Part shown: one piece after another, positions 1,086 through 64,000 of the stretch | How positions within the stretch are numbered: the stretch's first letter is position 1 | Layout of the letters: each line of letters begins with the position of its first letter | Origin: Psychromonas sp. CNPT3 | Lineage (GTDB): Bacteria > Pseudomonadota > Gammaproteobacteria > Enterobacterales > Psychromonadaceae | Assembly: GCF_000153405.2 (NCBI RefSeq) | Contig: NC_020802.1 | Span: 1,011,883-1,075,882, forward strand | Direction of reading: 5' to 3' | DNA: 64,000 nt | Program-made: the position numbers and the translations under genes | Notes under the pieces: model-generated | Seen by the model: the letters and a program-made list of their open reading frames with translations, nothing else | Database searches by the model: none | What the model was told of the DNA's origin: nothing

Positions 1086-1123
1086 TCACCCCATTAATTC
1101 CATTGGTATAAAGAGAGTGGATC

Positions 1124-2044: not shown

Positions 2045-2056
2045 GAGAGGGGTCTT

Positions 2057-2959: not shown

Positions 2960-2969
2960 GGAAACGATA

Positions 2970-7253: not shown

Positions 7254-7285
7254 GAAAGAAAATATTAGCTTGCCTCAGGTTTTGT

Positions 7286-23290: not shown

Positions 23291-23984
23291 TGATAAAAAA
23301 CTGATCATGTTTGATCTAGACGGCACGTTAATCGACAGTGCCCCGGATTTAGCCCTTGCGATAAATCACATGTTAGTCGCATTAAAGCGTGATATTTTTA
23401 GCCAAGATATTATTCGGTCGTGGGTGGGCAATGGCGCTCAAATATTGGTTAAACGTGCTTTATTAGGGAAAATGGATCACTCTGAAGATTTAGATAGTGC
23501 GCTATTAGAGGAAGCGGTTTCTATTTTCCTCGATTTTTATAAAAATAATTTATGTGTTGAAACCGTGACTTATCCTCATGTTCGTGCGACATTAAAAATA
23601 CTTAAGGCACAAGGTTATCGTTTAGCGATTGTTACGAATAAACCTTTTGCTTTTATCGAGCCTATTTTAAAAGGCTTACAGCTAGAAGGTATTTTTGAAC
23701 TTTGTGTGGGTGGCGATACATTAAGTGTGCGCAAACCTGATCCGCAACATTTATTATATGTTTGTGAAAAACTCGGCGTAAGTTACCAGCAGTGCGTCAT
23801 GGTTGGCGATTCGCGTAACGACATATTAGCGGCTAATGCAGCTAATATGCAAAGTATTGGTTTAACGTATGGTTATAATTATGGCGAAGACATTTCGCTG
23901 CATAAACCCGATGCGGTTTGCAGTGATTTTGCAGATATGATTGCCATGTTAGCTGAAAAAAATGAATATGAATTGATCGATTAA
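23280..23984 (+). CDS. gph: Phosphoglycolate phosphatase (HAD family)
   Basis: HAD-superfamily phosphatase, about 234 residues, that removes 2-phosphoglycolate arising from DNA repair. Motifs: MFDLDGTLIDSAPDLA (nucleophile Asp and DxDxT), VTNKPF (motif II), Lys in RKPDPQHLL, and VGDSRNDILAANAA (motif IV). The reading frame is open further upstream, but the GTG at 23280 has a good AAGGAAG ribosome site and starts right before the conserved region. It overlaps the kinase gene. The FAD oxidoreductase follows after 13 bp, so four genes form one likely operon. Confidence 0.85.
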   Translation: MRFNDKKLIMFDLDGTLIDSAPDLALAINHMLVALKRDIFSQDIIRSWVGNGAQILVKRALLGKMDHSEDLDSALLEEAVSIFLDFYKNNLCVETVTYPHVRATLKILKAQGYRLAIVTNKPFAFIEPILKGLQLEGIFELCVGGDTLSVRKPDPQHLLYVCEKLGVSYQQCVMVGDSRNDILAANAANMQSIGLTYGYNYGEDISLHKPDAVCSDFADMIAMLAEKNEYELID

Positions 23985-23997
23985 TCGAGAATATAAC

Positions 23998-40400: not shown

Positions 40401-43400
40401 ACAGAGATAGAATCAACAGTGACAGTTACCCCTGTTAATGATGCACCTGACGCAATAGATGATACACAAACTACTTATGATACAAGCATAAGCTTAGATC
40501 AAGCGCCCGAATATGGGGTTGTTGAAGTTGAAATCGAGGGAAATTGGGTTGCGATGCAACTGGGCGAAAAATACCCAGAAGATACGAATGTCCGTTTTGT
40601 TCCTGATACAGAGGCCATTGAGAGTATAACCAAAGATATTGGTGTAGGCTCTTTCGATCATGTTTTAGATAGTGATTTTAGTCAATGGGGAACACCGGTA
40701 CCGGGCGATGCAAGTAAAATAATTTTTGATGCCGGTAATGGTGTATTTATCACAACGTCTATATCTGAAGGTTCACTCGTTGCTTATAATAGTGAAGGTA
40801 CTCATGTTGGTTTAGGAATTGGTAATGCATCTGCAAATGGGATCAATGGTAATGAAACATTACTGATTGAAATACAGGGCGAGTATGTCAATGAAGTAAG
40901 CTTAACATTAGGAGGCTTAGGCACTTGGTTTGATGAATCAAGTGATAATGCGACAGAAGTTGTTATTACTGCTTATTTTGCAGATGGTAGCTCAGAGCAA
41001 CAATCAGGATACAGGCAGAGTGGTGAACATAGCGATGTCTATGTATTTAATTCAGATAAACCTATCGTCTCTTTTGAGTTATCAACGCAAGGCGGAAACG
41101 GCTCATATGTAGTGCAAAATATGACATTATCTTCTACTTTAACGGATGAAATACATATCTCGACGGGTAATGCGGATGGTAGTACGAGTCAAAGTGTTAT
41201 TGAATTAGATTTAAATAATAATGAATCATCGGTGAATGTCTCTTTAAATGATCAGATAAAAGATGCAATTACTGATCCCAATAAAGGTGACATTGTCGTC
41301 AATGAAGATGAGAATATTACTATCGATGTCCTCGAAAATGATACCGATGTGGATGGTGATAAACTTACTATCACGCATATTCAAGGACAAGAAGTGTCCG
41401 AAGATGGCCAATCGGTAGAGATTATTAAAGAGGGTCAAATAGTAGGTACTGCAAAATTAGTTGATGGAAAAATTCAATTTTTCCCTGCACAATATTTAAG
41501 TTTAGGTGAAGAGGAAACGGTTGCTATTGAGTACACTATTTCTGACGGACAATTATCAGATTCTGCTAAGGTTATCATCCAGGTAACCGGAGAAAATGAT
41601 GCAACGCTACTAAACGTACAAGAAGCACATGGTAATGAAGATAACGAAATACCTTTAAATATTAATGTTGAGACAATCGATAGTAGCAGTCGTGTAACAA
41701 GTATTAATATTGGGGATATCCCCGTGGGTGCGGTGTTATTAAGCGCGGGCGTTATCATTAATATTACAGATGGCAATGCGACGCTAAGTCCCGAGCAATT
41801 AACCGATCTTAAAATCATACCGCCAAAAAATAGCGATCAAGATTTTGATTTGAGTATTACGTCAACGAGCATTAATGCTCAAAATGAAGAAACGACTCAA
41901 CAAGTGCAACTACATGTTGAAGTACAGGCCGTTGTAGATGCTCCAAACCTAGAAACAAGCATCAGTGATGCACATATCTCGTTACTTAACGGCAGTGATT
42001 TAAACTCAGAAACGTTTGATTATCAAACCTATACAGAGGCCCTTGCAAGCGCTGATAATGTATTTATAGCAGCCCAAGAAAATGATGCTATTTATGGAAG
42101 CTCTGAATTTGACACTGTTATTTTTAGTGGTAATGCCAGTGATTACACTATTAATGCAAATGATTTTGCTACAAACAATGGCCATCTTAATATTGTTGAT
42201 CATTTAGGTAATGACTCATCCGGTTCGGGTGATAATTTATACAATATTGATCGATTAGTATTTGCTGATGGTGTTTATCTGGTGCAAGCCGATGGATCGT
42301 TTATTGCGGAAGGCATTTCGGTTGTAGAGTATGACGTTGATATTAATGCGTCTTTAAATGATCTTGACGGCAGCGAATCGATGATCATCGAGATCCATGA
42401 CGTACCAGACGCAGCCATCGTTATTGGAGCGACAAAATCAGAAGAGGGTGTTTGGGTAATTAAAATAGACGAAGGTCAGTCTGATTTTGATGGCGTTGTA
42501 AGCATCCGTTTACCTGAAGATCAAAATAATATGTTCACGCTTGATATAAAAGTCACCGCGACCGAGCAAAATGACAATGAAAATGGACAAAATACAACTA
42601 GCACCACACAGAGTGTTACGGGTACACCAATTATAGTCGAGGAAACGGTTAATTTAGTTATTTCTGAGCCTGAAATAGCGGAAACAAATTTAATTTTAGT
42701 ACTAGATATTTCAGGAAGTATGAATGGGTCTATAGAGGGAAGTGACCAAAACAGATTAGATTTTGCAAAAACTGCATTAAGTAATTTATTAGAAATACAA
42801 AATACGTTGGGCGTTGTTAATGTAAATTTAGTGGCCTTTGAAAATAATATCTTTAGCTCACATTGGGTCACTTTAGATGGTGGACCAGAAGGCTTAGCGT
42901 CAATATTGCAGTATATTGAGAACTTAAATGCGGATGCCTATGGTGGCACAAACTACCAAGATGCATTAAAAACGGTAATGTCTGAATTTGAACAAGGTGT
43001 CGCTAGTGGCGATATTGATGTTAGTAAAGATACGAATATTGTCTTTTTAAGTGATGGTAAGCCTGGACAGTCAATTATCAATAATCCAGTTGAACAAGAA
43101 TGGAATGATTTTACGTCGAATTACAACATAGACAGTATTAATACGGTTGGGATACAAATATCGGCGGGTGATCAAGTTTTAGTGATAGATGAGTTATCAG
43201 TGATATCACCAGAAAATGCACCCGTGTTACTTGATGATCCTGCAAAACTATCTGACTTATTAGAAGTACTACTGACGCCTTCTGTCGATGGCGATTTTAT
43301 CTCTTCAATTAATGATTCATTAAATGTGGAAATCAGTTCCGTTATTATTGGTGATAAAACCTATAGTTTTGATGGAACGCGAATTTATGAAGGTGGTAAT

Positions 43401-44703: not shown

Positions 44704-46860
44704 ATGAATAAACAATGGGCCATCCAATCGTCAGAAAACCTCAATCAAGATCCCTTGCTTGATTGTTTAGTCTTATTAAGTGAACATTTTGGTGCCCCTT
44801 GCTCTGCAGAGGCGTTATCTGCTGGATTACCACTAACGGGCAGTGTTCTCTCTCCTGAGTTATTACCACAAGCCGCCATGCGCGCTGGACTGAGTGCAAA
44901 ACTGACGCGTAAAAGTTTAAATAATATCCCTGCTATGTTATTGCCTTGTATTATTTTATTAAAAGATCAAAAAGCGTGTGTATTACAAGAATTAGATATA
45001 AAAAATAACAAAGCGATCCTTTCATTACCAGAAACAGGGGGTGAAGAACGTGTCAGTATAGAAGACTTAGAATCAACATATGTAGGTTATTTATTCCTCA
45101 TAAAGCAAAAATATCATGGCGATCGAACGTTTGATGTGCATATTAATGCGACAGAAAAACATTGGTTGTGGGATCATATCAAAGCCTCTTCTTCTATTTA
45201 TCGAGATGTGATCATCGCGTCTATTTTAATTAATATTTTTGCGTTAGTATCGCCTCTTTTTGTGATGAATATTTACGATAAAGTGGTCCCTAACATGGCA
45301 TTTGAAAGCCTGTGGGTGCTTGCTATCGGAGGTACTATTGCTTATATATTCGATCTTATATTAAAGCAATTACGTAGCTATTTAATTGATATGGCAGGTA
45401 AAAAAATAGATATTCAAGTCTCTTCTAAATTGTTTGCAAAAGTGATTGGTATTCCTTTGGATAAACAAGCCCCCAGTGTTGGTGGTATGGCAAGACAACT
45501 GGGCGAATTTGATAGTGTGCGTGAGTTTTTATCCTCTGCGACATTAACCGCATTAGTGGATCTACCTTTTTCGTTGTTTTTTATCTTTATTATTTATTTA
45601 GTCGCGGGAGATTTAGCGGTTTTCCCTGTTCTTGCTACCTTTATGATTTTAGGTTATGCCCTATACGTACAACCTAAACTGCGTATCGCCATTGAAGAAT
45701 GTAATAAATTTTCAGGCCTACGCCATGGGCATTTAATTGAAAGCTTATCATCACTTGAATCGATTAAAGCTAACGGTGCAGAAGGTATTATTCAAAATTC
45801 ATGGCAACAGATGTTAGGCCATACTGCCAATTGGCAATTAAAGACAAAAACGATCACTAACTCGGTTGCCAATGTTTCTGGATTTCTTGTGCAATTTACG
45901 GTAATAGCGGTCATCGTTTTAGGGGTTTACCGCGTATCTGAAGGCTTGATCTCGATGGGTGGTATTATTGCTGCTGTTATGCTTTCTAGTCGCGCCGTAG
46001 GGCCGATGGCAAAAGTGGCATCATTAATGACGCGTTATAATCAAACGTTAAGCTCATTACGCCAACTCGACGGTATTATGGATCAAGAGGGCGAATTTGA
46101 AAATAAAGGGCATTTATCGAGTGTAAAAAAACTCTCCGGGCACATTGTTTTTGAACATGTTAGTTTTCAGTATCCGAATATTGAAAAATCTGCGATTTAT
46201 CCATTATCGATAAAAGTAGAGCCGGGTGAACGCATTGCTATATTAGGGCGTAATGGCTCAGGGAAAACCACCCTCGCCAAACTGTTGTTGGGTTTATACC
46301 ATCCAACGCAAGGCAGCATTCGCTATGATGGTTTGCATCAAGGGCAGTTACACCCAAGCGATTTACGCCGTAACTTTGGTTATTTACCACAAGACATCGT
46401 GTTATTTCATGGTTCAATCAAAGATAATATTTTGTTTGGGACGAAACAAGTTACAGAATATCAATTGATAAGAGCGGTACAACTTTCTGGTGTCAGTATG
46501 TTTACTGATTTAGAATCAGAAGGATTAGATCAACAAGTGGGAGAAGGTGGTAAATCACTTTCTCGCGGTCAACGTCAAGCGGTTGCTTTAGCGCGTGCGA
46601 TTTTAAACGATCCGCAAATATTGTTATTAGATGAGCCAACCGCAAGTTTAGATGCGCGTGCAGAAAAACAATTTATGTCATCGATGGCAAAAACAGCAAA
46701 ACATAGAACGCTCTTTTTAATTACCCATAAAATGCATTTATTGCAGTTAGTGGATCGTATTATTATTTTAGAAAGAGGTCATATTGTGGCAGATGGTCCT
46801 AAAGACGTTATTTTAGAAAAATTAAAAAATGGGGCAATTAAGATGGATGCCAAAAAATGA
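44704..46860 (+). CDS. lapB: Type I secretion ABC transporter (LapB-like)
   Basis: Inner-membrane ATPase/permease of the adhesin exporter, 718 residues. The N-terminal ~140 residues are a C39-peptidase-like domain lacking a recognisable catalytic Cys-Gly context (DPLLDCLVLLSEHFG), which in this class docks the substrate rather than cutting it. A six-helix membrane domain follows (about 170-450), then the nucleotide-binding domain with Walker A GRNGSGKTT, the signature LSRGQRQAVALARA (Arg for the usual Gly) and Walker B ILLLDEPTAS. Its stop overlaps the next start (ATGA). It is the first gene of the export/control operon. Confidence 0.92.
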   Translation: MNKQWAIQSSENLNQDPLLDCLVLLSEHFGAPCSAEALSAGLPLTGSVLSPELLPQAAMRAGLSAKLTRKSLNNIPAMLLPCIILLKDQKACVLQELDIKNNKAILSLPETGGEERVSIEDLESTYVGYLFLIKQKYHGDRTFDVHINATEKHWLWDHIKASSSIYRDVIIASILINIFALVSPLFVMNIYDKVVPNMAFESLWVLAIGGTIAYIFDLILKQLRSYLIDMAGKKIDIQVSSKLFAKVIGIPLDKQAPSVGGMARQLGEFDSVREFLSSATLTALVDLPFSLFFIFIIYLVAGDLAVFPVLATFMILGYALYVQPKLRIAIEECNKFSGLRHGHLIESLSSLESIKANGAEGIIQNSWQQMLGHTANWQLKTKTITNSVANVSGFLVQFTVIAVIVLGVYRVSEGLISMGGIIAAVMLSSRAVGPMAKVASLMTRYNQTLSSLRQLDGIMDQEGEFENKGHLSSVKKLSGHIVFEHVSFQYPNIEKSAIYPLSIKVEPGERIAILGRNGSGKTTLAKLLLGLYHPTQGSIRYDGLHQGQLHPSDLRRNFGYLPQDIVLFHGSIKDNILFGTKQVTEYQLIRAVQLSGVSMFTDLESEGLDQQVGEGGKSLSRGQRQAVALARAILNDPQILLLDEPTASLDARAEKQFMSSMAKTAKHRTLFLITHKMHLLQLVDRIIILERGHIVADGPKDVILEKLKNGAIKMDAKK

Positions 46861-48230
46861 AGATAAATAAAGATGACTTAGAAATGGTCGATGATGTTTA
46901 CGGTGCGATTTTAACACAAGCGCCGAGTGTGCATCGTTATACCATTTGGTCGCTAGCCGCCTTGTTTGTGTGTTTCTTTATCTGGGCTTATTTCGCTAAA
47001 TTAGATAGGATCACGCGCGGTGAAGGAAAAGTTATCCCTTCCTCTCACATTCAAGTGATCCAAAGTTTAGATGGTGGGATATTACAAGAGCTTTATGTAA
47101 AAGAAGGTATGCGAGTGATCAAAGGGCAATCGTTAGCGCGTATTGATGATACGCGTTTTCGATCAGATCTTGCCCAACAAGACAGAGAAGTGGATGCTTT
47201 ACGCGCTAATATTATTCGCTTACGCAGTGAATTAAGCAGTATTTTAGTCGCGGATGTAAAAAAATGGCAGTTACAAATAAAAATTGATAAACGTATTTTA
47301 ATTTTTCCGGTTGATTTGACGAAAAAATCACCTACATTAATAGAGCGCCAACAACAAGAATATAATGGACGTATTAATACACTCATTAATCAAATTGCGA
47401 TTCAAGCGCAACAAATAAAACAACGTGGGCAAGAAGTTAAAGAGTTAACTTCAAAAATATACACACTACAGACCAGTTTAAAATATGCCAATAGAGAGCT
47501 AAAATTAACACGGCCATTGGCTAAAAAAAATATAGTACCATTAGTTGAACTCTTAAAATTAGAGCGCAATGCAAATGATATTGGAGGAGAGCTAAGAGCA
47601 TTAAGGATCTCCAAGCCAAAACTTCAGGCTGCCTTTGAAGAAGCGATATTAAAACGCCGTGAAGCTGCGCTTAAATATCGTAGCGAAGCGCGCGCGAAAC
47701 TGAACGAATTACAATCTATTTTTTCACAGATAACTGAAGCGCAAATAGGTGTTAAAGATAAAGTCACTAAAGCGTTGATAACTTCACCCGTGATAGGAAC
47801 CATTAAAACAATACATATTAGAACCTTAGGTGGCGTTGTTAAACCGGGTGATGTATTGCTAGAAATTGTTCCAACAGAAGATAAATTATTAATTGAAGCT
47901 AAAATATTACCGAAAGACATTGCATTTATTCATCTTGGCCTGCGCGCTCGAGTAAAAGTTACGGCTTATGACTTTACGCGCTATGGCGGTTTAGATGGGG
48001 TTGTGGAGCACATAAGTGCAGATACAACACAAGATAAAGACGGTAATAGCTTTTATATTATTCGAGTGCGTACCCAAGATTCAGCGATAATCGGTAAAAA
48101 GGGTGAAAATATGCCGATCATCCCAGGAATGTTGACCACCGTCGATGTCATTATAAGTAAAAGAAGCGTTTTAGATTACATTTTAAACCCTATTTTACGT
48201 GCTAGAGAAGTTGCGTTACGAGAATATTAA
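46857..48230 (+). CDS. lapC: Type I secretion membrane-fusion protein (HlyD family, LapC-like)
   Basis: Periplasmic adaptor that joins the ABC transporter to the outer-membrane channel, 457 residues. It has a short cytoplasmic N terminus, one membrane helix (about 26-44, YTIWSLAALFVCFFIWAYF), a lipoyl/barrel half (VIQSLDGGILQELYVKEG), a long periplasmic coiled coil (about 115-280), and the second half with SPVIGTIKTIHIRTLGGVVKPGD and a C-terminal beta-barrel. It begins within the last codons of the ABC gene (ATGA overlap) and leaves a 74-bp gap to the TolC-like gene. Confidence 0.92.
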   Translation: MKINKDDLEMVDDVYGAILTQAPSVHRYTIWSLAALFVCFFIWAYFAKLDRITRGEGKVIPSSHIQVIQSLDGGILQELYVKEGMRVIKGQSLARIDDTRFRSDLAQQDREVDALRANIIRLRSELSSILVADVKKWQLQIKIDKRILIFPVDLTKKSPTLIERQQQEYNGRINTLINQIAIQAQQIKQRGQEVKELTSKIYTLQTSLKYANRELKLTRPLAKKNIVPLVELLKLERNANDIGGELRALRISKPKLQAAFEEAILKRREAALKYRSEARAKLNELQSIFSQITEAQIGVKDKVTKALITSPVIGTIKTIHIRTLGGVVKPGDVLLEIVPTEDKLLIEAKILPKDIAFIHLGLRARVKVTAYDFTRYGGLDGVVEHISADTTQDKDGNSFYIIRVRTQDSAIIGKKGENMPIIPGMLTTVDVIISKRSVLDYILNPILRAREVALREY

Positions 48231-48304
48231 AGACAAAGCAAAGGCTGTTAGCCAAACTTTAAATTTAAAATACAAATTACTAAAATAAAAATAAGGAAGT
48301 CCAC

Positions 48305-49693
48305 ATGAAAGCTTTTACACTAAAAGTTGGTAAGTATCATGCTCTGAGTCTGGTGCTATCAGCTGCATTATTACCTTGCAGTGTTTATAGCCAATCACTT
48401 GAACAAGCGGTGGCATATACGCTAGACACCAACCCCGAATTACGCGTTGCTTATACTCGGTTTAAAGTGAATGAGAAAAAGGTGGAGCAAGCCGAAGCCG
48501 GATATTTACCGACTATTGATTTAACGGGGGGGATTGGTTATGAATATACCGACAGTCCAGGTACTCGTCGTGACGGTAACGATAATACGGAAGAGCTTAT
48601 GCGCCGCGAGCTGGGCATTAGTTTAAAGCAAAATATATTTAGTGGTTTCCATACTCAAAGTGAAGTTGAACGTACAAGTTATGCAACCAGTGCTGAGCAA
48701 TGGCGTTTGCACAGTAAGGCTGAAGATCTGGCTTTACAAGTGAGTAAAGTTTATGTGGATCTTATTAAAGATAATGCCTTAGTTGCGCTATCTGAAAAAT
48801 ACTTAGTCTCACATGAAGAAATTCATGAAATGATAAAGTTACGTACAGAGTCAGGCTTTAGTAGTTCCGCTGACTTGTCGCAGATCAATGGGCGTCTTGC
48901 AAAAGCGCATTCTATTGTTATTGCGGCTAAGAATAATGCACTTGACAGTAAAACAAGCTTTTATCGTTTAATAGGTCAAAAGCCAGAGAATTTAGTTATT
49001 CCTATGCCGGATGCCTCTAAACTACCGAAAACGCAAGCACAAGGCTTGCAGTTAGCGCTTGATAACCATCCGACTATCCGTGCGGCTGGCAATGATATTC
49101 ATTCAGCTAAAGCGCAATATGAGTCTTCAAAATCATCTTATTACCCGAATGTCTCATTAGAATTAAATGCAAACTTTAATGATGATTTAGACGGTGAAGA
49201 TGGCACTGGAGCGAGAGATGTTGGCGGTGAGAATAATGAATTCCAAGCGATGTTACGCTTCTCTTATAATCTATACTCTGGTGGAAAAGATAAAGCTTAT
49301 TCTAAAGAAACAGCTTATAAAAAGAGTGAAGCATACGAACTTAACCGCAATGTGCAACGTCAAGTCAAAGAAGGTTTCATTCTTTCTTGGGATGCCTTTG
49401 AGCAGTTAAACTTGCAAAAGAAATACATCAAAATGCATGTTATTTCTGCGAAAGATACACAATCTGATTACGCTGAGCAATTTAAAATTGGGCAACGTAG
49501 CTTACTGGATTTATTAGATACACAAAATGAGCTTTATCAATCACGTCGTGACTTTTTAGAAGCTGAATTCTCAGAAATAACCGCGCAATACCGCATACTG
49601 AATGCAATGGGGTTATTGGTTGATACCTTAAAAGTAACTCGCCCTAAATCATGGCAAGGTGAAGAGCAATTCGCGGGAGGAGTTGAATTATGA
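48305..49693 (+). CDS. lapE: TolC-family outer-membrane channel (LapE/AggA-like)
   Basis: Outer-membrane exit duct for type I secretion, 462 residues. A signal peptide is visible (to about residue 29, LSAALLPCSVYSQS). The mature protein has the two-fold OEP repeat: SLEQAVAYTLDTNPELR at the start of the first half and GLQLALDNHPTIRAAGNDI at the start of the second. Long helical stretches alternate with beta strands, and the FKIGQRSLLDLLDTQNELYQSR block is typical. An AAGGAAG ribosome site precedes the ATG. The OmpA-like gene starts within its last codons. Confidence 0.92.
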   Translation: MKAFTLKVGKYHALSLVLSAALLPCSVYSQSLEQAVAYTLDTNPELRVAYTRFKVNEKKVEQAEAGYLPTIDLTGGIGYEYTDSPGTRRDGNDNTEELMRRELGISLKQNIFSGFHTQSEVERTSYATSAEQWRLHSKAEDLALQVSKVYVDLIKDNALVALSEKYLVSHEEIHEMIKLRTESGFSSSADLSQINGRLAKAHSIVIAAKNNALDSKTSFYRLIGQKPENLVIPMPDASKLPKTQAQGLQLALDNHPTIRAAGNDIHSAKAQYESSKSSYYPNVSLELNANFNDDLDGEDGTGARDVGGENNEFQAMLRFSYNLYSGGKDKAYSKETAYKKSEAYELNRNVQRQVKEGFILSWDAFEQLNLQKKYIKMHVISAKDTQSDYAEQFKIGQRSLLDLLDTQNELYQSRRDFLEAEFSEITAQYRILNAMGLLVDTLKVTRPKSWQGEEQFAGGVEL

Positions 49694-50295
49694 AACTATT
49701 TTTAATAATGCTATTAACCTTTTTTGTATCGGCCTGTTCATTACAAGCGATTGATATGGCAAAAGAGCCAACTGAGCAAAAGTTTGATTTAAGCGATGAA
49801 GAAGCGGATGGCGTGATCTTAGCAAGAGATAACTGCCCTGGCTCTGTGCTGGGTGCCGATATCAATAATAATGGTTGTGGACTTACAACCGCCGTTAAAG
49901 TGCGCGCTCAGTTAATGATCAACTTTGAAACAGACTCGTATGTTGTTAGCAGTAATTATCTTCCTAAGATTGAGCATTTATCTCAATTTATGCATGAATA
50001 CCCACAAACAACCGTGACCATAGAAGGGCATACAAGTCATCGTGGCACGGCGTCTTACAATAAAATATTATCGCAGCAACGTGCGGATATGATCAAGAAA
50101 ATATTGATTGAGGAATATCAGGTTGAAGCTTCGCGTATTACAGCAATTGGTTATGGCTTTGATCAATTATTACTGGAAGGCGATGATGAATATGTGCATG
50201 CGCGTAATCGCCGCATTGTGGCTGAAATTAGCAGTGAGAAGCATATTTCAGATATGAAATGGACAATTTATACGGTGGATCAAAGTATTGAATAA
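49690..50295 (+). CDS. OmpA-family peptidoglycan-binding lipoprotein
   Basis: A 201-residue lipoprotein with lipobox FVSAC (Cys16) and a C-terminal OmpA domain (about 70-185: INFETDSYVV, TIEGHTSHRGTASYN, LSQQRADMIKKIL and ARNRRIVAEI) that should bind peptidoglycan. A short linker, DNCPGSVLGADINNNGC, resembles the Asp-rich thrombospondin-type segment in such proteins. It sits inside the type I secretion operon and overlaps the TolC gene by 4 nt. A role in anchoring the secretion channel or adhesin to the wall is inferred from context; such OmpA genes accompany RTX adhesin exporters in marine bacteria. Confidence 0.88.
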   Translation: MKLFLIMLLTFFVSACSLQAIDMAKEPTEQKFDLSDEEADGVILARDNCPGSVLGADINNNGCGLTTAVKVRAQLMINFETDSYVVSSNYLPKIEHLSQFMHEYPQTTVTIEGHTSHRGTASYNKILSQQRADMIKKILIEEYQVEASRITAIGYGFDQLLLEGDDEYVHARNRRIVAEISSEKHISDMKWTIYTVDQSIE

Positions 50296-56628: not shown

Positions 56629-58041
56629 TTATTGAGCAGCTTCTCTTGCTGCAATAAAGTCTAATGCACGTGAAATACGCACAAGACTGCGCTCTTTACC
56701 TATTAAGCGTAGCGTCACATCTAATGAAGGTGATTGACCTGCACCGGTGATCGCAACACGTAAAGGCATACCGACTTTACCCATACCAACTTCAAGTTCG
56801 TCTGCTGTTTTTTGGATCAAGTCGTGTAACGTCTCATCACACCAGTCGTTACAGTCTTGTAGTTTTTGTTGAACTAATTGTAAAGCGCCTTTAGCGACAG
56901 GGCGAAGGTGTTTTTTAGCCGCCGTTGCATCAAACTCTTTGTACTCTTCAAAAAAGTAACGGCTTGAACTTGCTAAATCAACTAATGTTTTAGCGCGCTC
57001 TGCGAGTGCAGTGACAACATCGCTAAGTGCAGGGCCATTCGTCATGTCAATGTTTTGTGTTTGCATATGCCATTGTAAGTGCTCAGCAACATAGGCAGGA
57101 TCAAGCGTTTTAATGTAATGCTGGTTCAGCCAAATTAACTTGTCATTGTTAAAAGCAGAAGGTGCTTTATTAACACGGTCTAAGGTAAATAGCTCAATCA
57201 TTTCAGCTTCAGAGAATATCTCTTGGTCGCCATGAGACCAACCTAAGCGTACTAAATAGTTTTTTAGGGCCTCAGGTAAGTAACCGTCATCACGGAACTG
57301 CATAACCGATACAGCGCCATGACGTTTAGAAAGTTTAGCGCCATCATCACCTAAAATCATTGCCACATGTGCATATTCAGGGATCGGTGCGCCTAAAGCT
57401 TTAAGGATATTAATTTGACGAGGGGTATTGTTAATATGATCTTCACCACGGACGACGTGTGTGATCTGCATATCCCAGTCATCAACAACCACACAGAAAT
57501 TATAAGTCGGTGTTGAATCAGTACGCTGAATAATTAAATCATCCAACTCTGTATTTGAAAACTCAATATGGTCGCGCACGTGATCATCAAATGCAACACT
57601 GCCTTCTTTTGGGTTTTTAAAACGAATAACAAAAGGAAGATCATTTTCTTGAGGCTCTAAATCACGGCATTTACCATCATAGCGAGGCGCTTCACCGGCA
57701 GCTTCTTGTTTTTCACGTAAATCATTGACACGCTCTTTAGAGCAGTAACATTTGTAGGCTTTCTTCTCATCTAAAAGTTTTTGGATCAAGTCTTTATAAC
57801 GGTCAAAACGTTTAGTTTGATAAAAAGGGCCTTCATCCCATGTTAAGCCCATCCAAGTCATGCCTTCTAAAATGGCATCAACGGCTTCTTGTGTAGAGCG
57901 TTCAATATCTGTGTCTTCAATACGAAGTACAAATTTACCACCTTTGCTTTTGGCATATAACCAAGAAAAAAGGGCAGTACGAGCACCACCTACGTGTAAA
58001 AATCCAGTTGGACTAGGGGCAAAACGAGTTTTAACGGTCAT
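56629..58041 (-). CDS. gltX: Glutamyl-tRNA synthetase
   Basis: Class I synthetase that charges tRNA-Glu, 470 residues. N-terminal [19 protein letters not shown] holds the HIGH-type signature (HVGG), KLSKRHG is the KMSKS loop, and the zinc-binding insertion has CYCSKERV plus a later Cys (YDGKC), as in E. coli GltX. The C-terminal helical anticodon-binding domain ends near [13 protein letters not shown]. It is monocistronic, diverging from the tRNA operon. The first ATG gives the conserved [12 protein letters not shown] start. Confidence 0.96.
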
Positions 58042-58222
58042 TCGAAAGTTCCTTTAATATACTGAGGAAGATAAAAAAACATATTTTAACTAATAGTTTT
58101 GTAATTACATTAATTATTTTACGTAAATTCATAACAAATAAAGAAAAGTAATAATATTTGAGCAGACATCGCTTACCCTTTGTACGGTTAAGCAATAAAT
58201 GCAATATTTATGATAAAAAGCC

Positions 58223-58250
58223 TTGACTGAAAAAGGGCTGTCCCTATAAT
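58223..58250 (+). promoter_or_regulatory. Strong sigma-70 promoter of the tRNA operon
   Basis: TTGACT (58223-58228) and TATAAT (58245-58250) are separated by 16 bp. A GC-containing stretch (ACGCC) follows the -10, resembling the discriminator of stringently controlled stable-RNA promoters. It points at the first tRNA-Val, about 45 bp downstream of the likely start. Confidence 0.88.
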
Positions 58251-58301
58251 ACGCCACACAAACGAGATATCGGTAACGTTATTAAGTTTAATTTTAAAGA
58301 T

Positions 58302-58377
58302 GGGCGATTAGCTCAGTTGGGAGAGCACCGCCCTTACAAGGCGGGGGTCAGTGGTTCAAGCCCACTATCGCCTACCA
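58302..58377 (+). tRNA. tRNA-Val(UAC), copy 1
   Basis: A 76-nt cloverleaf with encoded CCA. Acceptor GGGCGAT/ATCGCCT, anticodon loop CTTACAA with anticodon TAC, and T arm GGTTCAAGCC. It is first in a tandem set of five identical genes; the 48-nt spacer after each carries a conserved hairpin ACTTCT...AGAAGT that could guide processing. Confidence 0.97.
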
Positions 58378-58425
58378 TCTTTAACTTCTTTAGCGTAGAA
58401 GTAAAATAAGCTTAAATTTAAAGAT

Positions 58426-58501
58426 GGGCGATTAGCTCAGTTGGGAGAGCACCGCCCTTACAAGGCGGGGGTCAGTGGTTCAAGCCCACTATCGCCTACC
58501 A
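58426..58501 (+). tRNA. tRNA-Val(UAC), copy 2
   Basis: Same 76-nt sequence as copy 1, 124 bp downstream, with the same spacer hairpin. Confidence 0.97.
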
Positions 58502-58549
58502 TCTTTAACTTCTTTAGCGTAGAAGTAAAATAAGCTTAAATTTAAAGAT

Positions 58550-58625
58550 GGGCGATTAGCTCAGTTGGGAGAGCACCGCCCTTACAAGGCGGGGGTCAGT
58601 GGTTCAAGCCCACTATCGCCTACCA
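58550..58625 (+). tRNA. tRNA-Val(UAC), copy 3
   Basis: Same 76-nt sequence, again at a 124-bp period. Confidence 0.97.
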
Positions 58626-58673
58626 TCTTTGACTTCTTTAGCGTAGAAGTAAAACAAGCTTAAATTTAAAGAT

Positions 58674-58749
58674 GGGCGATTAGCTCAGTTGGGAGAGCAC
58701 CGCCCTTACAAGGCGGGGGTCAGTGGTTCAAGCCCACTATCGCCTACCA
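58674..58749 (+). tRNA. tRNA-Val(UAC), copy 4
   Basis: Same 76-nt sequence at a 124-bp period. The following spacer differs slightly (TTTTAACAT loop in the hairpin). Confidence 0.97.
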
Positions 58750-58798
58750 TCTTTGACTTCTTTTAACATAGAAGTAAAACAAGTTTAAATTTAAAGAT

Positions 58799-58874
58799 GG
58801 GCGATTAGCTCAGTTGGGAGAGCACCGCCCTTACAAGGCGGGGGTCAGTGGTTCAAGCCCACTATCGCCTACCA
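58799..58874 (+). tRNA. tRNA-Val(UAC), copy 5
   Basis: Same 76-nt sequence, 125 bp after copy 4. The spacer that follows is different and short (20 nt) and leads into the initiator tRNA. Confidence 0.97.
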
Positions 58875-58894
58875 TCTTTAAAAATAATTACGGA

Positions 58895-58971
<77 letters not shown>

Positions 58972-59090
58972 ATTCAAAGAAAGATAAAAATCAAAAATAT
59001 TATTAGAAAATAAAACCCCAAAAGCAAATTCCAAAACCGAAACCAAATCTAAACAAAGAAAACCAAATAAAAAAGATCCAAGAAACCTCA

Positions 59091-59153
59091 TCGGGCTCAG
59101 CTATTTATAAACCCTAGCGAAGGTCGTAGGTTCAAATCCTGCTCTCGCAACCA
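59091..59153 (+). pseudogene. tRNA-fMet 3'-half remnant 1
   Basis: From TCGGGCTCA to the CCA end this 63-bp segment matches the 3' half of the fMet tRNA, including an intact T arm and acceptor 3' strand, but a 13-nt insertion (GCTATTT... AAACCCTAGC) replaces the anticodon loop and the 5' half is missing. It cannot fold as a tRNA. Preceded by an A-rich spacer that is repeated in part before the next remnants. Confidence 0.85.
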
Positions 59154-59253
59154 ATTCAAAACAAAAAATATTATTAGAAAATCAAACCTTAAAAGAAAAC
59201 CCCAAAATAAAGAAAACCAAAGAAAAAAGATCTAAGAAACTCAAAAAACCTCA

Positions 59254-59316
59254 TCGGGCTCAGCTATTCATAAACCCTAGCGAAGGTCATAGGTTCAAAT
59301 CCTGCTCTCGCAACCA
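59254..59316 (+). pseudogene. tRNA-fMet 3'-half remnant 2
   Basis: Nearly the same 63-bp segment as remnant 1, with GTCATAGG for GTCGTAGG in the T-arm region. The spacer that follows copies the spacer after the real tRNA (AAAGAAAGATAAAAATC). Confidence 0.85.
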
Positions 59317-59457
59317 ATTCAAAGAAAGATAAAAATCAAAAATATTATTAGAAAATCAAACCCCAAAAGAAAATTCCAAAACCGAAACCAAATCTTAGAA
59401 AGTCAAAAACCAAATATAAACAAAGAAAACCAAAGAAAAAAGATCCAAGAAACCTCC

Positions 59458-59520
59458 TCGGGCTCCGCTATTCATAAACCATGGCGAAGGTCATAGGTTC
59501 AAATCCTGCTCTCGCAACCA
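59458..59520 (+). pseudogene. tRNA-fMet 3'-half remnant 3
   Basis: Third copy, slightly more diverged (GGGCTCCGC and AACCATGGCG), sharing the GTCATAGG change with remnant 2. It ends in CCA at 59520, 345 bp before the first cassette boundary. Confidence 0.83.
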
Positions 59521-59865
59521 ATTTTCAGAAAAACCAAAATCAACTCCTTACTAATTAATTGTGTTTATATGCAGGTGTAATTCGTTTTGTCGTTTTGAGC
59601 AAAGGATCTCGTCATAAAAGAGCACACCATGTAACACTTTCCCCATAAAGATTTTTTAACTCATTGTAAAAAAGTAGAAAAATTATTTTATTTTTATCTC
59701 TAGGGATCTCTATAAGTTAAAAGCTCAACTTTTACATGAAGTATTCTCACTTACACGCCACTAGAGCTATGTTAACTCACTGTTTATATTTGATTTTTGT
59801 GTTATAAAGTAAATTATTAATTAATTATTAGATGTGTATTAGTAAGAATGCAGTCTAATACACTG
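59521..59865 (+). other. AT-rich segment between tRNA remnants and first gene cassette
   Basis: No ORF of note, no integrase gene and no recognisable attI. Just before the first cassette is a 9-bp inverted repeat, GTGTATTAG (59834-59842) and CTAATACAC (59855-59863), followed at once by the core site GTTAGGC (59865-59871). It lacks a left AAC arm, so it is not a full attC. It may be an unusual insertion site or the scar of a lost attI. Confidence 0.5.
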
Positions 59866-59888
59866 TTAGGCTTCTCAGGATGTAGTGA

Positions 59889-60713
59889 ATGGAATGGATC
59901 ATAGAATTAATTTATAAAGTACCTAATGTTATGTGGAGCGCAATCACAGCTTCTTTTCTAACATTTTTAGGTGTGTTTTGGACAAATAGAGGCAATGAAA
60001 AACGCCAAACAGCATTACTTGATCACGAAAAACAAAAATATCAATCAGAACAAAGATTAGCTTTAAAAAAAGAAGTCTTTTTAGATGTTGCCAGATCGTT
60101 TGCAGATGTATTAGAAATAATACCTAATTTTATGAACTTAGATTTCACAAAAAAAAATATTGAAACAAAAATGGCAGACCATAGTGGTATTGTTGCTAAG
60201 TCCTATTTAGTAGCTAAAGAAAGTTCGGTTGTAACTATTTTGAATTATTCAGCAGAAACGGCTGAAGTTTTCATTAAATTAATGAAGGATCGAGCTGTAG
60301 TTTTAGATCATAAAAAAGCTATTGAAATTTACCAATCAATTATAGATTCTGCAAAAAATGAAAAAGATAGAATAATATCAATAATGAAAGAGTTAAATAT
60401 TCAAGGCGATAATAATCAAGCAACTTTTGATTATTTAAATAAAAGTTATGAAGCGCAAGAGGCTATTATTAAACGCAATATTGAAAGCTTAGATGAGCAG
60501 AAATTAATTTTAGAGCCTTTACATTTGGTATTTTCAAAAAAATGTATGAATGATCACAGTCGCCTATTGTCACTGTTACCCCCTATGATCATAGCTCTCC
60601 GAGGAGAGCTTGAAAATGATAATGCTCCTAAAGTATTTATAGATGCTTTAAATGAGAATATTCAAAGAATGAATGTCGTATTTGATAGTTTATTTGAGAG
60701 TAACGAAGCCTAA
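59889..60713 (+). CDS. Cassette 1: membrane-anchored coiled-coil protein of unknown function
   Basis: A 274-residue protein that I do not recognise. One N-terminal membrane helix (about 8-30, VPNMVWSAITASFLTFLGVF-like) is followed by a charged, helical, coiled-coil-rich domain (about 35-270) with many Lys/Glu; that plan suggests a single-pass inner-membrane protein with a cytoplasmic body. An AGGA site precedes the ATG. Its stop TAA lies inside the left attC core (GCCTAAC), a sign of tight cassette packing. The low-GC, Lys/Asn-rich composition differs somewhat from the core genes. Confidence 0.7.
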   Translation: MEWIIELIYKVPNVMWSAITASFLTFLGVFWTNRGNEKRQTALLDHEKQKYQSEQRLALKKEVFLDVARSFADVLEIIPNFMNLDFTKKNIETKMADHSGIVAKSYLVAKESSVVTILNYSAETAEVFIKLMKDRAVVLDHKKAIEIYQSIIDSAKNEKDRIISIMKELNIQGDNNQATFDYLNKSYEAQEAIIKRNIESLDEQKLILEPLHLVFSKKCMNDHSRLLSLLPPMIIALRGELENDNAPKVFIDALNENIQRMNVVFDSLFESNEA

Positions 60714-60815
60714 CAAGCGCATAAAATCAGATTCGCAACGTGATCACATTGGTTACAAAATAATAAGACGCAACTAATGTGCCATCATTGTTAACTGTTT
60801 ATGCGGGCGTTATAC
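60708..60815 (+). other. attC site 1
   Basis: Left core GCCTAAC (60708-60714), right core GTTATAC (60809-60815). Inner arms AAGCGCATAAA and TTTATGCGGGC are complementary with a bulge. The recombination point is between G60809 and T60810. Confidence 0.85.
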
Positions 60816-60830
60816 GTTTAGGGAGGTTTG

Positions 60831-61634
60831 ATGAACGGAATCTGCGCATTATGTAAAAAATCGGCAAAGCTTAAAGATAGTCACTTTATGCCTAAAGCTG
60901 TTTACCGATCAATTAGTAAAGGTTTTCCTGAGCATGGTCAAAATATTGTTTGGATCACAGGTTCCGATAAATCAGCTGCTTACACAGACAAACAAGCTAA
61001 AAAGCATTTACTATGTGAAAGTTGCGAATTGAAATTCTCTAAAAATGGAGAAGATAAAGTAATCCATTTTATGGCTCGTCCTAACGGCTTTAAACTAGCT
61101 ACAAAGATAAAGAAATTTAAAAAACGGTCTAATATAAAAGATGACACATGGTATTTCCCATCAAGTGACGAAATAGCCAAAAGTTTCATGTATTTTGCTA
61201 TCAGTATTGCTTGGCGATTATCCGCGACAGATTGGAGTGCTTTCGGAATTCCTGAAACAAAGAATTCAATTCGTGAAGAGAGTATGAGTGCCTTTTCAGA
61301 TTTTCTATTAGGAAATACAGATCTTCCTACAAATACTTACCTAGCTGTATATGTTGATAATCAAATAGTAGATACACCATCAATGGGCTTTCCAACTGTT
61401 AAAAACCATGAGGGCTACCAACATATAGTGTTCAACATTCCAGGCATAAAACTAAGCCTATTAGCAGGCAACAATCCAGGTGCGGGAATTCGAGAAGCAT
61501 TCTCTCCCACTAACGTTTATTTTGTTAGCAGTAGCTTAAAGACTCACCCCGATTATCATTTTATGGTTAACTTTATAAAAAATGAATCTGTTGCTAAAGG
61601 GCGTTTACTGAAAGAGCGTAGAAAAAACGTATAA
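60831..61634 (+). CDS. Cassette 2: HNH-like zinc-finger protein of unknown function
   Basis: A 267-residue protein. The N terminus has CALC (about 5-8) and SHFMPKAVYR, and LCESCELKFSKNGE follows at about 61-74. The CxxC ... SH ... P ... CxxCE layout is that of HNH-type zinc-ribbon proteins, some of which are nucleases; the remaining 190 residues are unassigned and there is no clear second catalytic motif. The ATG at 60831 has a GGGAGG ribosome site; an in-frame TTG lies one codon earlier. The stop TAA is inside the left core of attC 2 (GTATAAC). No membrane helix. Confidence 0.68.
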   Translation: MNGICALCKKSAKLKDSHFMPKAVYRSISKGFPEHGQNIVWITGSDKSAAYTDKQAKKHLLCESCELKFSKNGEDKVIHFMARPNGFKLATKIKKFKKRSNIKDDTWYFPSSDEIAKSFMYFAISIAWRLSATDWSAFGIPETKNSIREESMSAFSDFLLGNTDLPTNTYLAVYVDNQIVDTPSMGFPTVKNHEGYQHIVFNIPGIKLSLLAGNNPGAGIREAFSPTNVYFVSSSLKTHPDYHFMVNFIKNESVAKGRLLKERRKNV

Positions 61635-61728
61635 CAAGCTGTTTAACAAGGACAAAATACAGTTGGCTTTTGCTCCTTCGACGCTTATTCTAGCCAACTA
61701 TATTTAGCCTGTTAACAGGGCGTTATGA
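61629..61728 (+). other. attC site 2
   Basis: Left core GTATAAC (61629-61635), right core GTTATGA (61722-61728). Inner arms CTGTTTAACAAGG/CCTGTTAACAGGG and AGTTGGCT/AGCCAACT. The next gene starts inside the right core. Confidence 0.87.
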
Positions 61729-62441
61729 ATACCTTGGATTCTGCAATGAATGGTGCACCTTTGAAAGTTGAACATCCCAGAGATTTTTTCGCTAGAGCGG
61801 AAGTTTTAAGCGGGACTTATTTTGACATTACAGAAAAAGAATATTGCGAAAGCCTGAGAATAAGCAATATCAATATAGAAGGGTTAAGTGATGAAGATAA
61901 ATACCTTTTAAATGGTAAATCGACTGAATCAAAAATAAAAGCAATCGTATTTGCTGCAATGTGTGTTGAAGCTGCAATAAATGATTATGCAGGATCGCAG
62001 CTTGGAGATAAATACTATCAGCAACACTTAGTTAACTTAGATGTAGTTTCAAAATGGGTTGTTATTCCTCTGTTAATTTGTGGGAACTCTTTAGATAAAT
62101 CAGGACCAGCTTTTGCTAGCCTTAAGAAATTGATAAAAGCCCGCAATAATCTTATCCATAATAAATCATTTGAAATGGATGCATCTGATCCGATAGCGCT
62201 TGTACATAAATTAGATAAGCGAGAGTTAGAATTCGAAGATGATTTTACTAATTCACTTCGAACATTATATTTATTGAGTATGGAAATAAGTTATGTTGTA
62301 GGTAATTATCATAATCCAATTAGAATATTCAACGATAAAACAAATCCATTTCAAGAAGTACCAAGTTTAGCTAAACCTTTATTTACAGCTTGTCAGAAAA
62401 CTGTGAGTGAAATTCATAACAAGGCAATTAAACGGAACTAA
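61725..62441 (+). CDS. Cassette 3: HEPN-like protein of unknown function
   Basis: A 238-residue, mostly helical soluble protein. The segment KARNNLIHNKSFEMD (about 143-157) has the RNxxxH pattern typical of HEPN domains, and it follows helical stretches (IVFAAMCVEAAINDYAG, LKKLIKARNN) as in the HEPN/MAE_28990-type four-helix fold. HEPN proteins are often RNases in toxin-antitoxin or defence systems; no partner gene is beside it, so the function is open. The ATG is part of the attC core TTATGAAT and the AGGG ribosome site belongs to the upstream cassette's attC. The stop lies 20 bp inside attC 3. Confidence 0.68.
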   Translation: MNTLDSAMNGAPLKVEHPRDFFARAEVLSGTYFDITEKEYCESLRISNINIEGLSDEDKYLLNGKSTESKIKAIVFAAMCVEAAINDYAGSQLGDKYYQQHLVNLDVVSKWVVIPLLICGNSLDKSGPAFASLKKLIKARNNLIHNKSFEMDASDPIALVHKLDKRELEFEDDFTNSLRTLYLLSMEISYVVGNYHNPIRIFNDKTNPFQEVPSLAKPLFTACQKTVSEIHNKAIKRN

Positions 62442-62513
62442 AACAGTGGGTTAGGTTTCGCTTTGCTACACATTATAACCCACTATTTTAGTCCGCTTAT
62501 TGCGGCGTTATAT
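62414..62513 (+). other. attC site 3
   Basis: Left core TCATAAC (62414-62420), right core GTTATAT (62507-62513). Inner arms AGTGGGTTA and TAACCCACT form the central stem; AAACGG and CCGCTT flank it. It overlaps the 3' end of the cassette 3 gene. Confidence 0.86.
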
Positions 62514-62921
62514 TGTATGGTGCAGTTCGGATATTGTGTGTAGAAATAAGCATCCTTTGTCATTCATGATGTTCGAGTTCATCGAGGGATCTAAGCCGAA
62601 ATGAGCACATTTATGTTTATTGTATTTACGGCTTAATCGCGTATAAAAGTCGGCTTAAATTTGTATAGTAAAAGTGTACTTAAGCTGGGTATTACATTAT
62701 TTTAACTCGTTAATTTTCATCTGAAATAGAGGGTTTAAAAGGAGCAACGCAGCAATATACTCATAAGTTGTTTAATTATTTGTTTTGTTATCGTACTCGC
62801 AGGAGCCTATCTGCGGAGTTTAAAGCAAATAATTAAGTTGCTTTAGCTTGGTTAGTTTCTTTTCAATGCAATCAAGTAAAGTGTGTTTTTAAACGTAACT
62901 TGTTCAAAAACAAGTCATAAA
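62514..62921 (+). other. Cassette 4: gene-less segment with a long palindrome
   Basis: About 400 bp with no ORF I can support (only an 11-codon ORF at about 62601). Its main feature is an inverted repeat: TTAATTATTTG (62772-62782) with CAAATAATTAA (62826-62836), enclosing ACTCGCAG (62795-62802) and CTGCGGAGT (62811-62819). An RNA or a structured DNA element is possible. Confidence 0.55.
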
Positions 62922-63031
62922 AAATAACAAGTTGCTTAACTCGGACGCAAAACGCTTTGTCATCATTTTTGCAAAAGAACAAACCGCAAAAATAAAGCCA
63001 AACCTATGCGTCGGTTAGCAATGCGTTATAC
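62922..63031 (+). other. attC site 4
   Basis: Left core AAATAAC (62922-62928), right core GTTATAC (63025-63031). Inner arms GTTGCTTAACTCGGACGCA and TGCGTCGGTTAGCAATGC are complementary with small bulges. The left core differs by one base from the ATATAAC expected from the cassette's first bases. Confidence 0.78.
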
Positions 63032-63046
63032 TTCTAGGAGTTATTC

Positions 63047-63249
63047 GTGTCTAAAATTGAACATTTAAATATTACTATTCCAAATATAGATAAAGCGATT
63101 AAATTCATTAAAATCATCGCGCCTGATTTTAAAGTAAGAAAAAATGTGAAATCGTCGACTAGTTATCTATAGGTAATGATGCTTGTTATTTTGCTCTTCA
63201 AGAACCTCATTTAAATAGTGAACCTGAAAAACCACGCAAAACCTACGCG
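63047..63249 (+). pseudogene. Broken VOC (glyoxalase-fold) gene in truncated cassette 5
   Basis: From a GTG with an AGGAG ribosome site the frame reads MSKIEHLNITIPNIDKAIKF and so on, a VOC-type metalloenzyme N terminus, then stops at 63170-63172. The homologous reading continues in another frame from 63169 (IGNDACYFALQEPHLN, then EKPRKTYA), which points to a small deletion. The gene is then cut off and joined to the right half of an attC at about 63241. The C-terminal half of the domain is absent. Confidence 0.75.
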
Positions 63250-63270
63250 CCAGTTATTAAGGCGTTAAAT
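63241..63270 (+). other. Right half of an attC site
   Basis: ACGCGCCAGTTATTAAGGC followed by core GTTAAAT (63264-63270) looks like the 3' half of an attC. No matching left half (GTATAAC expected) occurs between 63031 and here, so a deletion has removed it together with the end of the VOC gene. Confidence 0.65.
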
Positions 63271-63362
63271 TTCATTCAGTGTTGTTGGTGTGAAACACGT
63301 TTGATAATTTTTTATTAAGTGATGTAAAGTAAGGAAAATTACATAAACTGAGGCTTTGCTCT

Positions 63363-63776
63363 ATGGCAGGAAAATCACCGAAAGGACCTGGTTATATCTA
63401 CATTTTTGTGAATGAGACTAATCCGAATGAAGTCAAGATTGGATTATCTATAAATCCTGTAGCTAGGCGGAAACAATTACACTCAACTGGTACTGCAAAA
63501 CCCATGTATATTCACTCCGTATGGGAAGTGCCAAATATGAAAGAAGCAGAAACAATTGCGCATGAAGTCATGAAAGGTCACCGCGTTAACCCAAAGCGTG
63601 AGTTTTTTCACTTAGTTCCAGAAGAAGCCGCATTAGACCTAGAAACTCCTCACCAGCATTTTGGTGGCCATGACCTTGCTGACGAATATATTTATACTAT
63701 TGCTGGGTTAATAGAAGATGCGTGGGAGTATTGTGATATTGACTATACACAAGTAAAAGGCAATACGTACTACTAA
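63363..63776 (+). CDS. Cassette 6: GIY-YIG/T5orf172-like protein
   Basis: A 137-residue protein. Residues 10-30 (GYIYIFVNETNPNEVKIGLS) match the start of the GIY-YIG fold in its T5orf172/MUG113 variant, with YIYIF in place of GIY and KIGLS in place of YIG; Arg in NPVARRKQL and Glu in KREFFHL are in the places of catalytic residues. Such proteins are often phage- or island-borne and may be DNA nucleases or DNA-binding modules. A GAGG site lies 8 nt before the ATG. It has its own attC downstream and begins about 100 bp inside the cassette. Confidence 0.75.
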   Translation: MAGKSPKGPGYIYIFVNETNPNEVKIGLSINPVARRKQLHSTGTAKPMYIHSVWEVPNMKEAETIAHEVMKGHRVNPKREFFHLVPEEAALDLETPHQHFGGHDLADEYIYTIAGLIEDAWEYCDIDYTQVKGNTYY

Positions 63777-63844
63777 ATAGGCGTTCACACCAACGCGGAT
63801 ATTAAATGTTCGCAATTTTGCCAGACAGTTCGCCTAAAACTGAA

Positions 63845-63936
63845 ATTTAACAAGTCATTTAAACGGAACAAAAACAGTTGGCCATCGCTCCGAGATTATA
63901 GCCAACCATTTTTCTCCGCTTAATGAGGCGTTGAGG
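63845..63936 (+). other. attC site 6
   Basis: Left core ATTTAAC (63845-63851), right core GTTGAGG (63930-63936). Inner arms CAGTTGGC and GCCAAC form the central stem, close in sequence to attC 2. Another cassette starts at 63931 and leaves the window. Confidence 0.85.
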
Positions 63937-64000
63937 CTGTAGAATTTATCCCCAAAGAGCGTTTCACGCTCTTTTTCCAATTAAGTCTAATTGTATATAA

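Follow-up and report, generated by a model that had tools for sequence, protein, structure and literature searches.

Dispersed attI repeats as possible cassette ports of a distributed integron in Psychromonas

Known integrons and the Psychromonas array

Sedentary chromosomal integrons of the Vibrio type carry one attI beside the integrase gene intI, and they show a similar array architecture and related attC sites to the system described here, a gene-cassette array in the chromosome of Psychromonas sp. CNPT3. The array begins near the right end of a stretch of 64,000 nucleotides (the window, G000:C1:1011883-1075882) of a genome that consists of a single contig of 3,052,410 bases and is 99.98% complete; G000 denotes this genome, G001, G006 and so forth denote other genomes, and L numbers denote fetched DNA stretches. 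Unlike the single attI by intI of the Vibrio type, attI in Psychromonas has been found at many places. We consider it probable that one or two integrases serve, or once served, many attI sites in a Psychromonas integron, and that the arrays of G000 are the remains after intI loss.

Integrons typically have one attI, according to the available portion of a report which also states that attI detection by IntegronFinder 2.0 is limited to class 1 (PMC9024848). An attC array without intI is termed a CALIN (cluster of attC sites lacking an integrase), as given in the accessible parts of two sources (PMC12444791, PMC9892861), and the window array is like a CALIN in having attC sites and no intI. However, attI is not part of this definition, whereas the window array and its sister arrays keep a conserved attI at their head. 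The nearest precedent is the attI-headed CALIN of the Shewanella prophage M16-3, which carries a complete integron and a CALIN, both headed by the same attI (PMC9892861). In this CALIN, as here, an intI-less array has its own attI; that of M16-3 ends with CACTAATAAAATGTT, similar to CTAATACACTGTT in Psychromonas, and on its right-hand side the Shewanella attI ...GCACTAATAAAATGTT is laid out like the attI of the window (PMC9892861). The two systems differ in extent, since M16-3 provides one extra attI in one prophage, whereas in several Psychromonas species attI occupies 10 to 23 places per chromosome, and these species differ in the sequence behind the same attI locus.

Extra pieces of attI also arise as delta-attI gene cassettes in class 1 and class 2 integrons, where they are recombined by IntI1; they measure mostly 14-18 nt, with one type of 244 nt and one complete attI1, and form cassette 3' ends inside one array, as far as the available text of the report goes (PMC12901181). 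In Psychromonas, in contrast, whole leaders head separate loci. The CALINs of Xanthomonas, of which seven loci away from the ilvD platform and a progressive intI loss are described, are alike in their dispersed integrase-less arrays and in the loss of intI; they differ from the Psychromonas loci in that attI is not reported for them in the accessible part of the paper (PMC12444791). A literature search has returned no title or abstract opening on dispersed attI or on Psychromonas integrons, with the subscription literature mostly uncovered and absence from print unproven.

Cassettes, attC sites and integrase genes in the window genome

The attI region and the cassettes occupy the following positions of the window, with attC scores given in bits of the covariance model R1.

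59624 to 59836, forward strand: attI leader, with colinear copies upstream of other modules in G000
59837 to 59867, forward strand: attI module, TATTAGT-N10-CTAATACACT followed by GTT, with the crossover G at 59865
59866 to 60809, forward strand: cassette 1, open reading frame (ORF) 59889-60713 of 274 aa, without Pfam or PADLOC match
60708 to 60815, forward strand: attC1, 86.1 bits
60810 to 61722, forward strand: cassette 2, ORF 60831-61634 of 267 aa, without Pfam or PADLOC match
61629 to 61728, forward strand: attC2, 83.1 bits
61723 to 62507, forward strand: cassette 3, ORF 61725-62441 of 238 aa, without Pfam or PADLOC match
62414 to 62513, forward strand: attC3, 84.7 bits
62508 to 63025, forward strand: cassette 4, without an ORF of at least 50 aa
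62922 to 63031, forward strand: attC4, 87.2 bits
63026 to 63264, forward strand: cassette 5, a remnant with a truncated attC at 63209-63270, 18.3 bits
63265 to 63932, forward strand: cassette 6, with an ORF of the T5orf172/MUG113 domain at 63363-63776
63845 to 63936, forward strand: attC6, 72.6 bits, its R'' box cut by an insertion sequence (IS) after GTT

The 11 sites from which R1 has been built all belong to the main array and include the five complete sites of the window, and their scores are therefore not independent of the model. R1 replaced a simple fold-based attC scan, whose long list held many chance matches. For the first attC alignment RNAalifold returned a consensus with zero pairs; the R and L helices were drawn by hand from the pairing rule and then tested for covariation: 78.1% of the cells are paired, two-sided changes number 29 against a shuffle mean of 11.3, and the covariation score is 0.330, compared with 0.037-0.085 for slid helices. 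With this covariation above shuffles, and with 72.6 to 87.2 bits for the five complete window sites, the gene-cassette array proposed in an earlier note on this DNA has proved real.

The cassette ends agree with this. A self-complementary start of at least 8 nt, counting GTT, has been found in 8 of 11 testable cassettes of the array's first section and in none of 2000 shuffles. In the window, cassettes 1, 2, 3 and 6 reach 9-11 nt with GTT counted and cassette 4 only 5 nt, with cassette 5 left out of the test, so that the claim of four among six cassettes complementary to their own attC has held. The R1 search of the whole G000 chromosome has given 29 matches at E <= 1. The main array accounts for 17 of them (genome positions 1072590-1093171, ~20 kb) and extends beyond the window edge, and it is the longest cassette array found in this chromosome; 12 matches lie elsewhere. 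The six consecutive cassettes delimited before thus stand as an array, but as one that continues past the window and in which the attC of cassette 5 is truncated and attC6 is split by the IS.

The scan of the whole genome that the earlier note had proposed, for attC as well as for intI, has found no intI in the chromosome of G000 (3.05 Mb) with Phage_integrase and TIGR02249, the integron-integrase model. Phage_integrase matches five places, and only two of these are matched by TIGR02249, below its cut-off, in open frames of 307 and 316 aa that fit what we presume to be XerC and XerD. Neither has a remnant of intI been detected in window positions 57001-64000, which include the interval from gltX to cassette 1 (best E 0.28). 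G000 consequently contains no intact intI by these searches, and no integron integrase has been found anywhere in its chromosome, as is the case for a CALIN-type cluster; the assignment to this type made beforehand is borne out. The second suggestion, an array split from its platform, missed the larger pattern, in which a genome has many attI platforms but hardly any intI or none.

Elsewhere in the genus intI is common: it occurs at E <= 1e-60 in 22 of 23 other genomes, the exception being G004, which is 79% complete. The intI of G001 is interrupted and lacks an internal stretch; it forms a long branch and groups with one intI each from G022, G007 and G018 (100/99 support). An intI on a replicon missing from the assembly, with arrays still active in G000, would be compatible with the representation of this genome by one contig only. 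Such a replicon appears quite improbable, as G000 is without a detected intI at its high completeness, and the relatives G006 and G022 carry intI on their genome's single contig. Among the plasmid records listed (10 of 21), only short matches have been obtained, to a GIY-YIG gene and to short pieces.

Dispersed attI modules and the sequence behind them

Judged by its sequence, the window array is headed by an attI with a conserved crossover. The core of this attI, TGTATTAGTAAGAATGCAGTCTAATACACT and then GTTAGGC, comprises the crossover and, ahead of it, an imperfect inverted repeat. The earlier note had seen no attI upstream of cassette 1, and this view is wrong, as the 345-bp AT-rich stretch ahead of the array holds the module at 59837-59867, which is found beside intI in G001. 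In that genome a window-type module (95% over 40 bp) adjoins intI; it lies at C34:8045-8075 on the strand opposite to the intI match at 6943-7671, which is the canonical position of attI. The leader part 59624-59715 weakly matches the spacer between intI and attI of G001 (68% over 95 bp, E 0.087), and the last ~100 bp of the AT-rich stretch are repeated elsewhere in the G000 chromosome, mostly ahead of other attC sites.

The module of the window, here called type C, is a dispersed repeat. It occupies ten places in G000, nine of them found by leader search and one by pattern search, and at up to 3 mismatches the pattern has been found 24 times in G006, at 23 places; further matches number 10 in G021, 8 in G001 and 6 in four other genomes, with none in 16 of 24 genomes and 0 matches across the 24 genomes for the reversed pattern. 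In the fetched regions, 44 distinct sites of type C have been retained, a set from which palindrome-derived reverse readings and matches with more than 4 mismatches are omitted. Exact module matches in the genome_contigs collection are confined to five stretches, all from Psychromonas, in a collection from which the genome of the window and very near ones may be absent. In G000, 9 of the 12 attC matches outside the main array have a same-strand attI module ahead of them, at a distance of up to 12 kb.

A second type, A, has been found with the intI-attI spacer of G006 as the query and recurs in 19 of 24 genomes. Among 70 listed matches, 49 in 15 genomes span the crossover (the other 21 were dropped), and 42 of these lie more than 1.5 kb from every intI found; 29 of the 49 share one end base, 4 nt into the crossover GTTA. 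This distribution persists when only matches of at least 100 nt are counted (35 of 42 away from intI), in the near-closed genomes G006 and G019 (7 of 9), and under a looser rule that admits matches within 15 nt of the crossover (51 of 59). Outside the genus, neither the spacer of G033 nor that of G053 recurs away from its own intI, G057 has a single match, also beside intI, and no other outside-genus genome has shown a spacer match, in small controls comprising 8 genomes for one spacer and 3 for another. The recurrence of G006's intI-linked attI region at intI-less places also bears on the idea that cassettes entered random secondary sites (attG) without involvement of attI. Such insertion is known for IntI, according to the accessible parts of two reports (PMC12901181, PMC12444791), but the loci share 80-400 bp of conserved sequence ahead of the crossover, where attG insertion would leave no more than a short upstream consensus, and we regard this explanation as scarcely credible.

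Whether cassettes begin behind the modules has been assessed by seeking the first bases past the crossover base as a reverse complement upstream of a GTT, with shuffled modules as the control. The test covered 65 fetched modules of both types, intI-linked ones included, and omitted modules with no more than 600 bp downstream, rows sharing their first 40 nt, and type-A rows lacking GTT where it was predicted. Self-complementary ends of 8 nt occur in 27 of the 65 modules against 4.5 in shuffles (maximum 11), those of 9 nt in 17 against 1.4 (maximum 6), and those of 10 nt in 6 against 0.5 (maximum 3); in G000 such ends have been found for 4 of 7 modules.

The sequence behind the modules also varies between species. 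Four orthologous pairs of intI-less type-A loci, drawn from the fetched ones, share upstream flanks of 1.7-2.3 kb at 91.0-94.4% identity:

pair 1, G009 and G020: 2242 bp upstream, 91.0%
pair 2, G009 and G019: 1746 bp upstream, 93.7%
pair 3, G009 and G019: 2338 bp upstream, 94.4%
pair 4, G009 and G019: 2322 bp upstream, 91.0%

At all four pairs the sequence past the crossover differs between the species. For pairs 3 and 4, identity is 92-96% in the two 100-column blocks by the crossover and only 32-56% in the five past it, which is the level of unrelated sequence. The far flanks are syntenic again (8965 bp at 93.2% for pair 3, 6898 bp at 97.7% for pair 4), with segments of differing length and content between them, and in a third species, G003, the locus of pair 3 has both flanks at ~80% and again a different content.

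As side observations on these variable segments, the reverse strand of L181 (G009:C29) carries at 1096-4120 four copies of a ~415-bp repeat block, spaced 861-887 bp and ending in another attI-like sequence, of which the first two precede the same small gene; possibly these blocks are attI-bearing cassettes in tandem. A group II intron origin has been considered for repeat blocks of G009, and Rfam Intron_gpII matches in L181 and L182 only outside them. Matches to the TwoAYGGAY RNA (RF01731) lie in or near variable segments behind dispersed attI in L126 (1830-2348), L181 and L182.

From these observations one may infer that the dispersed modules are cassette ports. An attI module of ~30 bp within a leader of ~180-300 bp is present at many chromosomal positions, and IntI made elsewhere would insert and remove cassettes at each of them by attI x attC exchange. 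If IntI acts in trans, intI need not adjoin any attI, and copies of intI may decay while attI persist, because intI would be needed once and attI in cis. In G000, where no intI has been found, the ten attI places and their cassettes persist as arrays that are presumably frozen by now, that of the window being the longest. The action in trans, the function of the modules as attI and the order of the losses are all part of this proposed course of events. If dispersed ports of this kind exist, cassettes would be exposed to many promoters and positions, and at least some integrase-less arrays would be members of a working system; such ports would escape a tool that does not seek attI outside class 1, as the available portion of the source describes it (PMC9024848), and the knock-out of a single intI is predicted to freeze all attI loci.

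Several observations weigh against this reading. Only in G001 does an intI accompany the type-C attI seen in the window, and since this gene lacks an internal stretch, the cognate type-C integrase has not been seen intact; as many genus genomes are drafts, an intI could also sit on another contig. Of the 49 type-A matches, seven are shorter than 100 nt. At pairs 1 and 2 the blocks just left of the module are divergent as well, down to 0.61 and 0.20, which makes them the weaker cases. The variable segments of pairs 3 and 4 share some repeat blocks at 71-99% identity, and R1 finds few attC in them, so that the identification as cassettes rests there mainly on the switch at the crossover. Import of whole alleles could partly explain different cassettes at one locus. 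Among 25 tested type-C modules of G006, finally, a self-complementary cassette end is present in only 3, one of these without AAC, and many type-C copies therefore look fossil.

The lack of a recognisable cassette end in those 22 G006 modules also favours decayed platforms as the sole explanation, in which whole integrons have been duplicated or acquired repeatedly and each has lost its intI, leaving orphan attI without any action in trans. Divergent-strand traces of intI, which include G001's own intI and lie no more than 3 kb from 6 of the 63 modules fetched, point in the same direction. However, the other 57 modules show no intI remnant at E <= 0.01, and orthologous intI-less loci diverge past the crossover despite upstream identities of 91-94%; we hold it unlikely that decay alone accounts for the pattern.

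A further explanation takes the modules as passengers of other mobile units, such as phages or repeat-bounded segments, so that their number would reflect spread and not function. In the viral contig IMGVR_UViG_3300000132_000028 (32 kb; L147) a module at 1141-1172 lies directly behind an Rz-like spanin gene and is followed by two cassette-like units; with GTT counted, the ends of the first unit are complementary over 11 bases (by eye). The sequence upstream of a module in G021:C155 resembles, by eye, that of the viral module. In G006:C1 a 2731-bp segment with an attI-like module lacking GTT is duplicated at 99.8% (~517900 and 3130300; L107, L110) and bounded by REP (repetitive extragenic palindromic)-like palindromes. 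On the other hand, the upstream neighbours of many type-C modules are, as read by eye, ordinary chromosomal genes. A passenger origin is a tentative possibility; it concerns the spread of the modules and is compatible with their use in trans. In the viral contig the second ORF resembles, by eye, a restriction-type nuclease, and intI has not been recognised among the ORFs of the 2.8-kb stretch covered.

The IS1182-type element and further features

The element that splits attC6 is listed first, followed by the left flank of the array.

63933 to 64000 and on to L006:7779, forward strand: IS1182-type element with the left end GAGGCTGTAG..., splitting attC6 after the GTT at 63932
56629 to 58041, reverse strand: ORF which we take to be gltX, the left chromosomal neighbour, present in 22 of 24 genus genomes
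58302 to 58971, forward strand: five tRNA-Val(tac) and one tRNA-Met(cat), by ARAGORN and Rfam
59088 to 59521, forward strand: three tRNA-Met 3' remnants in ~117-bp repeats (direct repeats D2/D3), between the tRNA cluster and the attI leader

The transposase of the element scores 265.6 bits against the NCBIfam IS1182 cut-off of 270 and matches Pfam DDE_Tnp_1_6 and DUF772. Its end sequence has 148 matches in 21 of the 24 genomes searched, and outside the end stand GTT in 41 (30 as GGCGTT), AAC in 91 (84 as TAAC) and other triplets in 16, so that GTT or AAC stands next to 132 of the 148 genus matches, where AAC is read as the flank of the opposite IS end. Of 12 fetched IS loci nine show GTT outside the end, and an attC match stops at the IS boundary in 7 of them, a count that includes the window's attC6, a training site of R1. 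Because of these flanks and boundaries, the element appears to use the integron crossover triplet as its target, with a 3-bp (GTT) duplication. Further copies inserted after an attC GTT lie in G000:C1 at 1966867 and 2019981. Insertion sequences targeting attC are known in the IS1111 group, for which the term IS1111-attC is in use, and the literature search on IS1182 with attC has returned no title on such targeting. We lean slightly towards a distributed integron in which the dispersed attI repeats act as cassette ports for an IntI working in trans, the IS1182-type element targets the GTT of attC and perhaps of attI, and the arrays outlast their integrase.

Genes past the tRNAs vary among genomes or are, by eye, unrelated to integrons in the stretches that reach beyond the tRNAs in G022, G006, G019, G017, G005, G003 and G018; the gltX locus of G004 is without tRNA genes, and no array has been recognised there. 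An ancestral integron site at the gltX-tRNA-Val locus has been considered and is not claimed here, in view of these comparisons.

Within the main array, the cassette proteins of L006 8848-9708 and window 63363-63776 match the candidate defence families PDC-S31 (DUF2971) and PDC-S57 (T5orf172), respectively. The array is interrupted by two opposite-strand genes at L006 12418-13942, named by eye as trpR-like and aromatic amino-acid permease-like. It also contains a duplicated block, in which a pair of neighbouring small genes, one of 115 or 116 aa and the other of 126 aa, is present twice, at L006 18081-18892 and in the region 23278-24092 (genome 1087963 and 1093160), as compared by eye over the first 70 residues. 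Farther left in the window, a repeat protein of 3350 aa (34401-44453) is followed by an operon (44704-50295) that resembles type I secretion by sequence appearance only.

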